From: Defluviicoccus sp.
Lineage (GTDB): Bacteria; Pseudomonadota; Alphaproteobacteria; MPNO01
Assembly: GCA_028820505.1 (NCBI GenBank)
Contig: JAPPIT010000022.1
Span: forward strand, 1-44,249
DNA: 44,249 bases
Direction: 5' to 3'
Shown here: positions 2,176-31,485 of the stretch, piece after piece
Layout of the letters: each line of letters starts with the position of its first letter
How positions within the stretch are numbered: position 1 is the stretch's first letter
The notes under the pieces: model-generated
Databases searched by the model: none
Told to the model about the DNA's origin: nothing
Seen by the model: the letters and a program-made list of their open reading frames with translations, nothing else
Translations under genes and position numbers: made by a program

Positions 2176-4263
2176 TCACCCTTCCCGCCGCGCGACGATG
2201 CAGCCGTCCCCGCGGACCTCCGCCCGCCAGCCGGCCATGACGAAGATCGTCGTCTCGCGCTCCTCGATTATGGCCGGGCCGGCCAGCGCCTGTCCCGCCG
2301 AAAGCGCCGCGCGGTCGTAGACCGGCACCGACTCGCCGTCTGCCCGCACATGGACCGGGCGCTTCCCCTTCGCCCCGCCGGGCGCGGCGGCGGTCATCGG
2401 TTCGGTCTCGCCGGCGATTCCGGGGCCGTGGGCGCTGACCCGCCACGCGACCGCCTCGATCGCGAGGTCGGAAAGGCGGAGCCCGTAGGCCGCTTCGTAG
2501 GCCGTCTCGAAGGCTTCGCGCAGCATCGCCCCGTCGCGCGCCGCCACCGGATTGCCGTCGAACGGAACCGTCACCTCGTTCTGCTGCCCGGCATAGCGCA
2601 TGTCGGCGCCGTGGCCGAACCGCATGCCGTCCTGCGGGCAGCCGGCGGCGGTCATCGCGGCGCGCGCCTCTTCCTCCATCGCCGCCATCGCCGCCTCCGC
2701 CCGGTCCCAGTCGACCGGCCCCGCCATGCCGCGCGCGAGGTCGTAGCGGAGCGGCGTGATCAGGGCTCCGAAGGCCGACAGAACGCTGGCGAGCGGCGGG
2801 TAGATCACCGTGTCGCCGTCGAGCAGCTCGGCGACGAAGCAGGCATGGGCCGGGCCGGCGCCGCCGAAGGCCAGCACCGGCAGCCCGCGATAGTCGAGCC
2901 CCCGGTCGGTCGCGTGCGCCCGCGCAGCGGCGGCCATCGATTCCCCCACCACGCGGAAGACGCCCCGCGCGGCCTCGATGCGGGCGACGCCGAGCCGTTC
3001 CGCGAGCCCGTCCACCGCGCGCTCCGCCGCGCGGAGGTCGAGCGCCATGTCGCCGCCGAGAAAGTGTCCGGCGTCGAGCAGGCCGAGCACGAGATCGGCA
3101 TCGGTCACCGTCGGCGCCCGGCCGCCGCGGGCGTAGCAGGCGGGGCCCGGCTCCGACCCCGCGCTGTCCGGGCCGACCTTGAGCAGCCCGAGATTGTCGA
3201 CGGTCGCTATCGAGCCCCCGCCGGCGCCGATCTCGATCATGTCGATCGCCGGGATGAGGATCGGGAAGCCGCTCCCCGCCTTGAACCGGTACACCCTGTC
3301 GACCTCGAACCGGCCGGTCACCGTGGGGCGGCGCTCCTCGATCAGGCACGCCTTGGCGGTGGTCCCGCCCATGTCGAAGGAGAGCATCCGGTCGAGGCCC
3401 ATCCGTTCGGCGAGATGGCTGGCGGCGAGCGCGCCGGCGGCTGGGCCCGATTCCACCATGCGGACCGGGAAGCGCCCGGCCGTCGCCGCGCCGAGCACGC
3501 CGCCGTTCGACATCATGATCAGCGGCGCGGTGGAAAAGCCGCGCTCGGCCAGCACCTCCGACAGCCGTTCGAGATAGGGGGCGACGATGGGCTGCGTGTA
3601 GGCATTCAGCACGGTCGTCGCCGCGCGCGGGTACTCGCGGATCTGCGGCGCGACCTCCGACGACAGCGAGACATGCAGGTCCGGCAGCCGTTCGGCCAGC
3701 AGGTCGCGGAGCCGGCGCTCGTTCGTGCCGTTGACATAGGCATTGAGTAGACAAATCGCGACCGACTCGACATTCGCATCATTTAATTGCCGCGCGAGAA
3801 TGTCGACCTCCGCCGCCTCCACCGGCCGGTCGACATTTCCGTCGGCATGGACCCGTTCGGAAATGCCGAACGTGCGCGCGCGCGGCACCAGCGGGTCGGC
3901 ATATTCGATCTGCGGGTCGAACATGTCGTAGCGGTGCTCGTCGCGGATATGGAGCACGTCGCGGAACCCTTCCGTCACCAGGAGCGCGGTCGGCGGCCCG
4001 CTCCGCGTGACGACCGCGTTGGTGACGATCGTGGTCGCATGCACGATCGTGTCGTCCACGTCGGCGGGCGCGATGCCGGCCTTCGCCAGCACCCCGTCGA
4101 CGGCCGCGAAGAACCCCTCCAGCAGGTCCCCGTGGGTGGTCAGCCGCTTGTCCGACCGCACCAGCCCGTCGCCCCGCCGCAGCACCGCATCGGTGAACGT
4201 CCCCCCGATATCGACCGCGACGCGGTAGCGGGGGGAGGGGTCCTGAACGTCCGGTCCTGTCAT
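2176..4263 (-). CDS. hyuA: Hydantoinase A/oxoprolinase family subunit (first pair)
   Basis: A 695-residue HyuA-type ATPase of the ASKHA fold. The N-terminal phosphate-binding motif VDIGGTFTDAVL (about residues 17-28) and the second one FDMGGTTAKACL (about 290) are both present, as is IEIGAGGGSIA. It should activate the cyclic amide by phosphorylation while HyuB completes hydrolysis. Its ATG overlaps the stop codon of the upstream PIN toxin gene (ATGA, 4260-4263). I see no separate ribosome site, so translation seems coupled to the toxin. hyuB follows after 2 bp. The length matches N-methylhydantoinase A proteins. Confidence 0.93.
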   Translation of the reverse strand: MTGPDVQDPSPRYRVAVDIGGTFTDAVLRRGDGLVRSDKRLTTHGDLLEGFFAAVDGVLAKAGIAPADVDDTIVHATTIVTNAVVTRSGPPTALLVTEGFRDVLHIRDEHRYDMFDPQIEYADPLVPRARTFGISERVHADGNVDRPVEAAEVDILARQLNDANVESVAICLLNAYVNGTNERRLRDLLAERLPDLHVSLSSEVAPQIREYPRAATTVLNAYTQPIVAPYLERLSEVLAERGFSTAPLIMMSNGGVLGAATAGRFPVRMVESGPAAGALAASHLAERMGLDRMLSFDMGGTTAKACLIEERRPTVTGRFEVDRVYRFKAGSGFPILIPAIDMIEIGAGGGSIATVDNLGLLKVGPDSAGSEPGPACYARGGRAPTVTDADLVLGLLDAGHFLGGDMALDLRAAERAVDGLAERLGVARIEAARGVFRVVGESMAAAARAHATDRGLDYRGLPVLAFGGAGPAHACFVAELLDGDTVIYPPLASVLSAFGALITPLRYDLARGMAGPVDWDRAEAAMAAMEEEARAAMTAAGCPQDGMRFGHGADMRYAGQQNEVTVPFDGNPVAARDGAMLREAFETAYEAAYGLRLSDLAIEAVAWRVSAHGPGIAGETEPMTAAAPGGAKGKRPVHVRADGESVPVYDRAALSAGQALAGPAIIEERETTIFVMAGWRAEVRGDGCIVARREG

Positions 4264-4703
4264 GGTCGGTTCAGGCCGACAAACAATGAGAGCCCCCTAA
4301 GGACGTCACGTGCGGTGACGACCGGTATTCCGTCAACCTCTCCGAGCGAGAGCACATGCTTCTTGTCGCCGGAAACGACGAAATCGGCATTTCCGGCGAT
4401 CGCTGCCGCAAGGATCGGGTTGTCCGATGGATCGGGTGAGAGATCCACCGCGGGCAGGTCGTTCAAGACAAGAGCGCGCACGGCAAGGTTCTCGAGGATG
4501 GCGTTCGCCTCGTCGGCGTCGACCAGTCGTCGGATACGGGGCCTTGCGAGCACCTCGGCAAGTTCGGCGATTTGCGCGGCGGATGTCACGAGCTCGATAT
4601 CGCCACGCAACCAGGCCCGGTAGAGCTCATCGGGCGGCGTGCCCTTGGTGATCAGGGCGCCGATCAGGATGTTGGTATCAAGAACGAGCCGCACGCGCGG
4701 CAT
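4260..4703 (-). CDS. PIN-domain toxin (VapC-like)
   Basis: A 147-residue PIN-family protein resembling the putative toxin-antitoxin PIN family. The expected acidic residues appear in order: LDTNILIGAL at residues 7-16, a Glu in QIAELAEVL near 45, DPSDNPILAAA near 93, and ADFVVSGDKKHVLSL near 108. Such proteins are Mg-dependent ribonucleases. It overlaps the 3' end of the antitoxin gene by 26 bp and the start of hyuA by 4 bp. The toxin-hyuA coupling is odd, because toxins rarely lie upstream of, and overlap, metabolic genes. Confidence 0.88.
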   Translation of the reverse strand: MPRVRLVLDTNILIGALITKGTPPDELYRAWLRGDIELVTSAAQIAELAEVLARPRIRRLVDADEANAILENLAVRALVLNDLPAVDLSPDPSDNPILAAAIAGNADFVVSGDKKHVLSLGEVDGIPVVTARDVLRGLSLFVGLNRP

Positions 4704-4914
4704 CCACCTCGCTATCGATCAGCCGGAGGAGTTCGTCCTGATCGTGCTCCGCGTTCCGATCCTTTACTTGCTCGACGGTCAGATCGAACACGTAGCGGCG
4801 TACGGCTTCGTCGACAAAGCGCGAAAGATCGCCTTTCTTGCCTCCGTTGCGCGCGAGGAACAGCCGGATCGTCCGATCCGTCTCTTCAGGGATCGAAAGG
4901 CTCCAACGGGTCAT
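4678..4914 (-). CDS. Ribbon-helix-helix antitoxin of the PIN module
   Basis: A 78-residue protein beginning MTRWSLSIPEETDRTIRLF, a typical RHH strand followed by helix, then LSRFVDEAVRRYVFDLTVEQ. The acidic, charged tail (about 50-78) would wrap the toxin. It lies first in the operon, as antitoxins usually do, with an inverted-repeat operator 23 bp upstream of the ATG. RHH antitoxins normally dimerise and repress their own promoter, which fits that site. Exact family membership is not certain. Confidence 0.82.
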   Translation of the reverse strand: MTRWSLSIPEETDRTIRLFLARNGGKKGDLSRFVDEAVRRYVFDLTVEQVKDRNAEHDQDELLRLIDSEVDAARAARS

Positions 4915-5039: not shown

Positions 5040-5145
5040 AGAGTCGTGAAAGGGGTGCCCGCACTCCCACTTCCCGACTGTGGAAAATATGGTGCGAAGC
5101 GTGTCCCGGGTCAAGAGAGATTTTTCTTTTTTAGATAATTTTTCT
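5040..5145 (-). ncRNA. Candidate promoter plus short structured RNA (copy A)
   Basis: Reading the minus strand: an A/T-rich tract (5115-5145), TTGACC (5109-5114), a 17-base spacer, CATATT (5086-5091), then a block with GTCGGGAAGTGGG (5068-5080) and a G-rich hairpin (5052-5068; GTGC/GCAC stem with GGG/CCC flanks) followed by CTTTC. The same order, spacing and initial sequence occur on the plus strand at 29060-29170. It could be a small RNA gene or a second leader for the RHH/PIN operon 130 bp downstream. There is no clear U-run terminator, so the RNA end is unknown. The rest of 4989-5273 holds no gene that I can see. Confidence 0.45.
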
Positions 5146-29059: not shown

Positions 29060-29170
29060 CCAAAAATTTTTCTTTTTGCGATATTTCCGCTTGACCGGGG
29101 ACGCGATCGACCCCATATTTGCCATGGTCGGGAAGTGGGGGCGCCGGAGGTGACGGCGCCCCTTCCGTTT
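29060..29170 (+). ncRNA. Candidate promoter plus short hairpin RNA (copy B)
   Basis: An AT-rich tract (29060-29088), TTGACC (29091-29096), a 17-base spacer and CATATT (29114-29119) are followed by GGTCGGGAAGTGGG (about 29127-29140). Then comes a strong hairpin: GGGGCGCC and GGCGCCCC flank the loop GGAGGTGA (about 29138-29162), with outer GGAA/TTCC pairing. The order, spacing and sequence match 5052-5145 on the other strand. The only gene downstream, the P450, runs in the opposite direction, so this promoter cannot serve a coding gene. A short RNA with an exposed Shine-Dalgarno-like loop is the simplest reading. The -10 context CCCCATATT would also suit a heat-shock sigma factor. Confidence 0.5.
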
Positions 29171-29180
29171 CCGGGCCGGT

Positions 29181-30506
29181 CTACGGCGACGGCGTCCCGG
29201 CCGTGTCCCATTCCACCCGGAGCTTCTGGACGCCGCGGAAGGTGAGCGTCGGGATGTACTCCCACGCCTGCCCGTCCACCAGCCGCATATGGGGGAGGCG
29301 GCGGGTCAGCTCCTCCAGGACGATGCGCATCTCGAGCCGGGCGAGCGGCGCGCCCATGCAGAAATGGGCGCCGTTGCCGAAGGCGAGGTGGCGCTTGGCG
29401 CCCGGGCGCGCGATGTCGAACGCCTCGCCGCCGGGGAAGGCCGCGTCGTCGCGGTTGCCGGAGCCCAGCAGGAGCAGGATCTTCGCCCCGGCGGGGACCG
29501 CGACGCCGCCGATCTCGGCGTCCCGCGTCGCGATCCGGCGCCAGGCGAAGATCGAGGTGTCGTAGCGCAGGATCTCCTCGACCGCGTTGGGGATCAGGGA
29601 GGAATCGGCGCACAGGCGCTCCCACTGCGCCCGGTCGGCGAGCAGCGCCTTCAGCCCGTTGGCCGAGGCCTGGGTGGTGGTCTCGTGGCCGGCGAACTGC
29701 ATGAGGAACATGACGTTGGTGAGATAGTTCACCGTGAAGCGCGACGGGTCCTCGCGGTGGAGCCGCACCATGTCGCCGAGATAGTTGTCGCCCGGGTCCT
29801 CGAGCGCGGCGTCGACGAGCTCCTTCGTGAACGCCCAGTGCTCGCCCATGTCGCGCATCATCGCGACCTGCTGGTCCTCGTCCGGCCGGCCCCAGTTGAC
29901 CACCGCGCGGGCCGAGCCGAGCCGCTTGACGAACACCGCGTCGTCGTCGCTGGCGCCGAGGAAGATGAAGATCGCGAGCGCCGGGACCTCGTAGAGCATC
30001 TGCGAGACCAGCTCGGCCTCGCCGTCGCCGGCGAAGCGGTCGATATAGCGGGTGACGATCGCCCGGATGCGGGGCTCGATCTCGGCCACCCGCCGGGGGG
30101 TGAAGGCGTCGCCGAAGATCTTGCGGTGCCTGAGATGCGTCTCCGGGTCCTCGTCGACCAGCGAGGGCTCGATGGCGATGTCGAGCCCGTCGCGCACCTT
30201 CGCGGCTTCCGGGCAGAGCGGCGTCACCGGGTGGCGGGCGAGCGCCGCGGAGAAGGTCTCGGGATCGCGGAACACGGCGACGATGTCGTCGTGGCGCGCG
30301 ACGACCCAGTAGCCGGTCTCCGGGCTGTGGAACACCGGCTCCTCGGCCCGCGCGCGCTCGAAGAACGGGTAGGGGTCGGCGAGATAGGTCTCGGAGAACG
30401 GATCGAACCCGGCGGCCAGCGCGCTCGCCGGGCAGGCGCGCGGCGGCGCGTCTTCCGGGGCCTCCGGCTCCGACTGGAACATGCCGAGCTGCTTGAAATT
30501 GGACAT
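29181..30506 (-). CDS. Cytochrome P450
   Basis: A 441-residue soluble bacterial P450. The I-helix oxygen-binding motif AGHETTT (about residue 270), the ExxR motif EEILR (about 315) and the heme loop FGNGAHFCMGAPLARLEMRI with the Cys ligand (about 373-392) are all intact. The ATG at 30506 has GGGAGGGAG just upstream. The frame can be extended upstream but without family similarity. No ferredoxin or reductase gene lies nearby, so electrons must come from elsewhere. It is divergent from an XRE regulator, with a possible operator in between. Substrate unknown. Confidence 0.93.
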   Translation of the reverse strand: MSNFKQLGMFQSEPEAPEDAPPRACPASALAAGFDPFSETYLADPYPFFERARAEEPVFHSPETGYWVVARHDDIVAVFRDPETFSAALARHPVTPLCPEAAKVRDGLDIAIEPSLVDEDPETHLRHRKIFGDAFTPRRVAEIEPRIRAIVTRYIDRFAGDGEAELVSQMLYEVPALAIFIFLGASDDDAVFVKRLGSARAVVNWGRPDEDQQVAMMRDMGEHWAFTKELVDAALEDPGDNYLGDMVRLHREDPSRFTVNYLTNVMFLMQFAGHETTTQASANGLKALLADRAQWERLCADSSLIPNAVEEILRYDTSIFAWRRIATRDAEIGGVAVPAGAKILLLLGSGNRDDAAFPGGEAFDIARPGAKRHLAFGNGAHFCMGAPLARLEMRIVLEELTRRLPHMRLVDGQAWEYIPTLTFRGVQKLRVEWDTAGTPSP

Positions 30507-30621: not shown

Positions 30622-31485
30622 ATGCGGACGACAAATGCCTACACGAACGACGACACGCCGGATGCCGACGACATCGACCCGGCAGCGCTCAAGGCCGCCC
30701 GGGAACGCCGCGGGCTGACCCAGGCGCAGCTCGCCGACGCGCTGGGATGCGGCAAGGAGACGGTAAGCCGGTGGGAGCGCGGCCGGTCGCGCCGGCTGCA
30801 CCCGCGCCACCGCGAGTCGCTGTGCGCGACGCTCGGGGTCGGGTGGCCCGCGCTGGCGGATGCCGGCTCCGGCGCGCCGGACGGCATTTCCGGCGACGGC
30901 GTCGACACGGCGTTCCGTCTCGCCGCCGAACGCTACGGCGTCGGCGTGCGCGACGTGACGGAGGCCGCGCCGCTGCTGTTCGCCGTCGCCGCCGAGCGGA
31001 GCCTGGCGGAGCGCCGGCAACGCCTCGACGCGGCGCGCGCGGAGGCGGAGAGCGCCGGGCGGGCGCTCGCGGACAAGGCGCCCTGGCTCGGCCGGGCCGT
31101 CGCCGAAGCGGTCCGGAAGGAGGAGAGATCGATCGCCCAAAACGACATTTTCGGCCGCCTCGGCCGGGCCGATGCCGACGGGGACGACGACCGGGGACCG
31201 TTCGCGCGCTACCTCCGCGACCTCGCGAAGGACCTGCCGGAGAGCGCGGCGGCCCTGTTTTCTCCTACCCCGGAAAAGGCCGACGAACCCGCCGCATCCT
31301 GGGACGAGAGCGAAGGCCGGCGGCGGCTCATGCCGCATTTCAAAGTGGGCCGGGTCGCCGTCGGGGACTATCTCAGGGCGCGCCGCGAGCGCGACGAAGC
31401 CGGCCTGCGGCAATGGGTGTCCGAGGCCCTCGCCCGGGCTGAGGAGGAAGCGCGCAACGCGTCGCCCGCGCCGGCGGGGACGTAG
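30622..31485 (+). CDS. XRE-family helix-turn-helix protein
   Basis: A 287-residue protein. The N-terminal HTH reads LKAARERRGLTQAQLADALG then CGKETVSRWERGRSRRLHPR (about 22-62). The remainder is Ala/Arg/Glu-rich and largely helical (about 120-190), with no recognised sensor domain. A second predicted helical part reads MPHFKVGRVAVGDYLRARRE near 240. The ATG at 30622 is preceded by GGAGGAACG. Divergent placement suggests it regulates the P450 gene. It could bind a cofactor or protein partner through its long C-terminal half. Confidence 0.85.
   Translation: MRTTNAYTNDDTPDADDIDPAALKAARERRGLTQAQLADALGCGKETVSRWERGRSRRLHPRHRESLCATLGVGWPALADAGSGAPDGISGDGVDTAFRLAAERYGVGVRDVTEAAPLLFAVAAERSLAERRQRLDAARAEAESAGRALADKAPWLGRAVAEAVRKEERSIAQNDIFGRLGRADADGDDDRGPFARYLRDLAKDLPESAAALFSPTPEKADEPAASWDESEGRRRLMPHFKVGRVAVGDYLRARRERDEAGLRQWVSEALARAEEEARNASPAPAGT

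Follow-up and report, generated by a model that had tools for sequence, protein, structure and literature searches.

Two places in the window, by which we mean the whole stretch of 44,249 nucleotides analysed here, carry the same short arrangement of promoter and hairpin, which raises the question of what such a promoter transcribes and how its output might be set. The first-pass annotation had described these loci, copies A and B, as sharing the order and spacing of their elements, and re-reading both in the sequence confirms this (Table 1). It had also held that the two hairpins differ while their pairing is kept, a claim that is weak for A and B themselves, with the hairpin of copy A apparently decayed, but that does hold for other copies of the family described below. 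The genome of the window (G000, 5.49 Mb) and its four congeners (G001-G004) are MAGs deposited as Defluviicoccus sp., for which bin names and a literature match suggest an origin in marine sponges.

Table 1. Features of copies A and B and of their surroundings, in window positions.
Feature	Position	Strand	Basis and remarks
Copy A, A+T-rich tract	5115..5144	-	Upstream of promoter, at ~-40 to -65; sequence and family profile with conserved CC(T)
Copy A, promoter TTGACC-17-CATATT	5086..5114	-	Sequence; TTGACC 5114-5109, 17 nt, CATATT 5091-5086; GGGAC in spacer at 5103-5107
Copy A, -10-like element CACAGT, initially transcribed region	5077..5082	-	Sequence; family conservation
Copy A, 13-mer GTCGGGAAGTGGG	5078-5066	-	
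Copy A, short hairpin GGGAGTGCGGGCACCCC, then TTT	5052..5068	-	Fold z -0.3; apparently decayed
RHH and PIN genes, between copy A and hydantoinase A	4260..4914	-	Pfam RHH_6, PIN_3
Hydantoinase A gene	2176..4263	-	Pfam; also follows the orthologues of copy A (G001, G004)
Copy B, A+T-rich tract, upstream of promoter	29060..29090	+	Sequence
Copy B, promoter TTGACC-17-CATATT	29091..29119	+	Sequence, family profile; TTGACC 29091-29096, 17 nt, CATATT 29114-29119; GGGAC in spacer at 29098-29102
Copy B, -10-like element CATGGT	29123..29128	+	Sequence; nAnnnT conserved in family
Copy B, 13-mer GTCGGGAAGTGGG	29127-29139	+	
Copy B, strong hairpin GGGGCGCCG-GAGGTGA-CGGCGCCCC, short TT tail	29138..29162	+	Fold z -2.4
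Cytochrome P450 gene, convergent with copy B	29181..30506	-	Gene call, Pfam p450

The surroundings of the two copies are distinct. Orthologues of copy A stand before the hydantoinase A gene in two congeners (L091 in G004 and L151 in G001); the RHH-PIN pair within the copy A leader is toxin-antitoxin-like, and no such genes were called in the leaders of L091 and L151. Copy B, as the annotation had stated, has no co-oriented gene directly downstream, and faces the 3' end of the minus-strand P450 gene; because that gene is convergent with it, copy B is an orphan unit. A lone unit also lies between P450 and MBL-fold genes in G002 (L100). An XRE-type HTH gene on the plus strand of the window (30622-31485) has no unit, while its homologue in G004 (L088) lies behind one.

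The 13-mer GTCGGGAAGTGGG occurs exactly eight times in G000, and seven of these sites have the same promoter at the same spacing, the eighth (L005) being without it. A gapped pattern combining the promoter with a 12-mer is found seven times in G000 and never when read backwards, and it has no match in 96 relatives or in 84,980 species genomes; thus, the likeness of A and B is not due to chance. When a looser pattern was run against named genomes, it returned 20 contigs labelled Defluviicoccus sp. together with one Verrucomicrobiia contig, the latter probably a chance match. A sequence-only model built from the seven copies (R1, cut-off E up to 0.1) matches 54 places in G000 and 9-17 in each of the four congeners, and a covariance model that includes the hairpin (R3, 28 copies) finds 56, 10, 15, 11 and 17 matches in G000, G001, G002, G003 and G004, respectively, at E up to 0.01, rising to 58, 10, 17, 12 and 21 at E up to 0.05, where a few of the weakest are hairpin-only. 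With R3, copy A scores 58.7 bits and copy B 84.2 bits, compared with 91.7 bits for L091. Beyond the genus, R3 matches nothing in the only other genome of the bacterial family, which is 79% complete, and gives a single weak match (E 0.006) across 21 further genomes of the order. All five genomes available for this alphaproteobacterial genus contain the unit family, and no convincing copy turned up elsewhere. A search of Rfam gave no match at the gathering threshold and two at chance level, in agreement with the earlier remark that the loci could not be matched to a known small-RNA family.

Among the 49 congener copies, the most constrained positions are CTTGAC, the spacer GGGAC, the A and TT of the -10 hexamer, and the A and T of an nAnnnT element. 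The GGGAC between the -35 and -10 elements is conserved at 96-100% per base, and nAnnnT begins 4 nt after the -10 hexamer, with its A present in 100% and its T in 98% of the copies and the bases between them variable. Only this A and T are strongly conserved, as expected for a -10-like pause element. Further upstream of the promoter, the family profile has an A+T tract with a conserved CC. The typical congener hairpin, GGGCGCCGG-loop-CCGGCGCCC followed by T4-T5, lies ~10 nt past the -10-like element. Over 103 units, GGGAC is kept in 96 and nAnnnT stands 25-27 nt from GGGAC in 91; a strong hairpin is present in 81, of which 55 have four or more T, and many of the T-runs in G000 are only 3 nt. 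The promoter, GGGAC and nAnnnT persist in copies that have no hairpin (for example L162, L168 and L174), and conservation is lower in the RNA from the start to the hairpin than in the spacer of the promoter.

Since the stem is mostly invariant in sequence, covariation across the family is weak. Compensatory changes are seen between species at the orthologous gene for a CoxM-type protein (CO-dehydrogenase medium subunit), where the five species have the stems GGGCGCC/GGCGCCC, GGCACC/GGTGCC and GGACGCC/GGCGTCC and the upstream flank is unalignable. The proposal that the promoter-hairpin arrangement recurs as a family and that its hairpin is under selection is therefore upheld, both by the copies in relatives (10-17 per congener from the covariance model) and by these paired stem changes. 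Three other readings of the unit were set aside. A leader peptide starting at the GTG of GTGGGG was dropped, as its frame is not kept across the different hairpin lengths. An RpoH-type promoter, for which the consensus is CTTGAC..CCCAT, suits copy B and not the copies with TATATT. Pairing of a 5' box with the U-tract, found in only 70% of cells and with weak covariation, was not used as an argument.

Gene positions were taken from our own gene calling, by which 102 of the 103 units overlap no called gene. A downstream gene was called for 98 units and is co-oriented with the unit in 78 of these. In the congeners, a co-oriented gene starts within 150 nt in 36 of 49 units, often 20-40 nt past the hairpin. 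With genes beginning so close behind, the most fitting interpretation of the hairpin is a terminator near the promoter, within the leader of an mRNA. Within G000, 14 of 54 units face a gene on the opposite strand. Several targets are kept between species, namely the CoxM-type FAD subunit (five species), Amidase_2 (four) and hydantoinase A (three), as well as SnoaL-like, alpha/beta hydrolase, UbiD, Rieske and membrane permease genes (two species each). The unit is mainly a 5' leader, given that most congener copies stand shortly before the start codon of orthologous genes and that some of their hairpins are compensated.

The targets also include a 17-member family of nuclease-like genes, several with a C-terminal XRE domain. 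Its proteins share the motif VIExQLGxSDHxHLGQLLTYA, a part for which Pfam has no match, and we take the family to be DUF4268-like. Each genus genome has 2-6 matches, most of them behind a unit (L101:1320-2060, L103:1055-1795, L089:1110-1892, L099:1858-2664, L165:5884-6621 and others), and five other genomes of the order have none. The Amidase_2 gene lies behind a unit at L074, L149, L157 and L164; Pseudomonas aeruginosa AlpA likewise controls a peptidoglycan amidase gene, ampDh3.

Taken together, the units have a sigma70-type promoter with a conserved, putatively bound spacer element, an nAnnnT element, and a predicted intrinsic terminator before the gene. In lambdoid phages, the Q gene lies just before the late promoter, with the terminase genes behind it. 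A module with this Q/AlpA-like layout would be expected to come with a factor gene, placed in phages just before the late promoter, and the gene for a protein of ~200 aa that we call Qx fits this expectation. Qx is present as a single copy in G000, G001, G002 and G004 (72-83% identical to the first), and its gene ends 0 to ~270 nt before a unit. Upstream of Qx is a gene for ~140 aa, cut off by the contig end in G001, and then, on contigs long enough to include it, a divergent XRE-peptidase S24 (CI/LexA-like) repressor. TerS and TerL follow Qx on the same contig in G001, where TerS, too, stands behind a unit. No Qx was detected in the assembly of G003, which has ~11 units; the fragmentation of that assembly may explain this.

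Homologues of Qx occur in other families of the order, in scattered Alphaproteobacteria and on IMG/VR phage contigs, and none was found among GenBank phages and plasmids. In phage L201 (the same as L202), the stop codon of Qx runs into TTGACGGCGGGACGCGAGTTTCGGCATGAT, followed by CACCAT and a strong hairpin; genes for HNH, TerL and portal proteins come next. The promoter at this stop reads TTGACG..GGGACGCG..CATGAT. A promoter-like match and a hairpin also start at the Qx stop in phage L200, where Qx again stands just before the promoter as in L201, and in the relatives L194 and L195. GGGACG lies 25-28 nt before CACNNT behind three of 21 non-genus Qx homologues, compared with 0.8% of random windows, among which these very sites are counted as well. 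In a stricter regular-expression scan, only one of seven further homologues with a located ORF had the promoter-hairpin module where Qx ends, and layouts resembling the unit that were noted by eye behind the homologues L211, L212, L216 and L219 are suggestive only.

Qx has no match in Pfam or NCBIfam, and no relative among solved structures, the Q/AlpA chains included, by phmmer and profile search of the PDB. AlphaFold models of Qx were unusable, with pLDDT values of 43 and 39 from a single sequence and a four-row alignment, respectively. The Phage_antitermQ profile (PF06530) finds nothing above its cut-off in these genomes. A NusG paralogue was considered as the factor and rejected, NusG being single-copy in the genus. 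From its position before units in the genus and before promoter-hairpin layouts in phages, Qx is the likely candidate for the antiterminator of the units.

We therefore favour, with moderate confidence drawn from sequence and from analogy with characterized antiterminators, a reading in which each unit is a promoter-proximal antitermination switch served by a domesticated Q-like antiterminator, Qx, whose late promoter has been copied across the chromosome. RNA polymerase would start at the sigma70-type promoter of the unit, pause at the -10-like nAnnnT close to the start and, by default, stop at the GC hairpin and U-tract just downstream, leaving an RNA of ~45 nt. During this pause, an antiterminator of the Q/AlpA type that occupies GGGAC(G/A) in the promoter spacer would be loaded onto the polymerase and allow readthrough into the gene behind. 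Qx, with its gene placed as phage Q is before its late promoter, would be that antiterminator, and a single factor could then drive a dispersed regulon of nuclease-like, HTH, peptidoglycan amidase, CO-dehydrogenase-type, hydantoinase, Rieske and other catabolic genes. Induction by DNA damage would be our guess, prompted by the S24 repressor and its parallel in AlpR.

The short and regular distance between the hairpin and the genes behind it would also suit a self-damped promoter that needs no antiterminator, in which the hairpin serves as a leaky terminator or as a 5' stem that stabilizes the mRNA, and GGGAC and nAnnnT are sites for the polymerase or for an ordinary repressor or activator, such as the XRE proteins encoded behind many units. 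T-runs of often only 3-5 nt point the same way, and autoregulation is plausible where units control XRE-domain genes, as many do. By itself, however, such a damper leaves unexplained both the combination of spacer GGGAC and nAnnnT at an AlpA-like spacing and the recurrence of the same layout behind Qx in phages, and we consider it unlikely.

At two loci, a block of ~0.5-0.6 kb that holds the unit in G000 is missing from the congeners, and the aligned G000 block additionally contains a REP-like palindrome and a ATGTCGAC-rich tail. Part of the expansion in G000 thus probably came about as a mosaic repeat inserted at new sites; that the congeners lost the blocks is less likely. Many G000 copies lie near contig ends. 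A dispersed G000 sequence, in which a tail rich in ATGTCGAC/ATGCCGAC comes after GGAGGACACGATCGTG, is located between unit and catabolic genes; it lies ~50-350 nt downstream of the unit at L047, L058, L061, L064, L066 and others. The REP-like palindrome GCCCGGAACAAGTCCGGGCATGACGG is very abundant in the genus and occurs in all five genomes (for example at ~2080 in L058).

The unit resembles REP/BIME or MITE repeats in that the G000 copies sit within a dispersed block of ~0.5 kb with REP-like palindromes, whereas in congeners the unit is conserved as a gene leader and the block is missing. It seems improbable that the unit is nothing but a dispersed MITE/BIME-like repeat that happens to carry a promoter and a hairpin and has no regulatory role: such a repeat would account for the two blocks missing from congeners, for a G000 copy number far above theirs and for the copies near contig ends, but not for a core that alone is conserved in the congeners while the upstream flanks are unalignable, nor for orthologous copies retained between species, with compensated stems and, in front of the amidase gene, a fixed spacing to the start codon. 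An autonomous family of ~45-nt RNAs acting in trans, along the lines of the small-RNA family suggested by the first-pass annotation, is very improbable and was not borne out, for although the unit has its own promoter and terminator, many copies, orphans such as B and no Rfam match, most congener copies are close gene leaders (36 of 49), the promoter and nAnnnT outlast the hairpin, and the RNA from start to hairpin is less conserved than the promoter spacer. Units may well give rise to a terminated RNA of ~45 nt, though this would more likely be a by-product.

Joining the antitermination switch to the expansion gives a broader scenario, in which a domesticated phage Q-like antiterminator governs tens of dispersed chromosomal promoters and, in one species, the cassette spreads within a mobile repeat that brings new catabolic genes under antitermination; we hold this combined scenario only tentatively, at somewhat less than even chances. 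If true, 10-58 sites per genome would make this the first regulon-scale case of antitermination in the literature searched, compared with two loci for AlpA, one for GafZ and the late promoter for phage Q; the search, which was of partial coverage, found no multi-promoter Q regulon. It would also illustrate how a switch for the late genes of a phage can turn into a global regulator in bacteria. The combination of GGGAC in the spacer, nAnnnT and a terminator directly behind would provide a signature for finding other such systems, and Qx is a candidate for a family of Q-like proteins that extends over phages and scattered Alphaproteobacteria.

In layout, the unit appears to work like a Q/AlpA module; we do not claim membership, because Qx is only a candidate factor and the sequence searches of the PDB gave no Q or AlpA chain for it. 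The nearest alphaproteobacterial precedent is GafZ of the Caulobacter gene transfer agent, a domesticated-prophage regulator for which an element between -35 and -10 lets the polymerase pass terminators (PMC11150451). Unlike the units, GafZ has a single target promoter, a palindromic element (GCGCCCG-CTGGCGC), a partner protein, GafY, and IHF sites. The phage Q proteins (lambda Q, 21Q and 82Q) use a binding element between -35 and -10, a -10-like pause element and a terminator downstream (PMC6606751). The units share the spacer element, the -10-like element and a predicted terminator, and Qx similarly stands just before a unit with terminase genes linked; in contrast, Q serves one late promoter per phage through an element of other sequence, and no sequence similarity to Qx was found. 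AlpA of P. aeruginosa binds 5'-GGGACG-3' between -35 and -10, with each base pair of the site contributing, and also requires CACGAT, a -10-like element that spans -1 to +5. The terminators bypassed with its help lie shortly downstream, their first base being 54 nt from the start at alpB and 26 nt from it at PA0807 (ampDh3) (PMC7969949, PMC9371919, PMC9998450). AlpA differs in having two target loci rather than tens of units and in placing GGGACG 3 bp nearer to the -10 element in alpB than in the units, and its solved chains have no sequence match to Qx. The resemblance nevertheless extends from the GGGACG spacer element, the -10-like element at the start and the terminator shortly downstream to the S24/LexA-like repressor upstream in the pathway (AlpR) and the amidase gene among the targets, and the distance from the first G of the spacer element to the A of the -10-like element is 25 nt in AlpA and 26 nt in the units.
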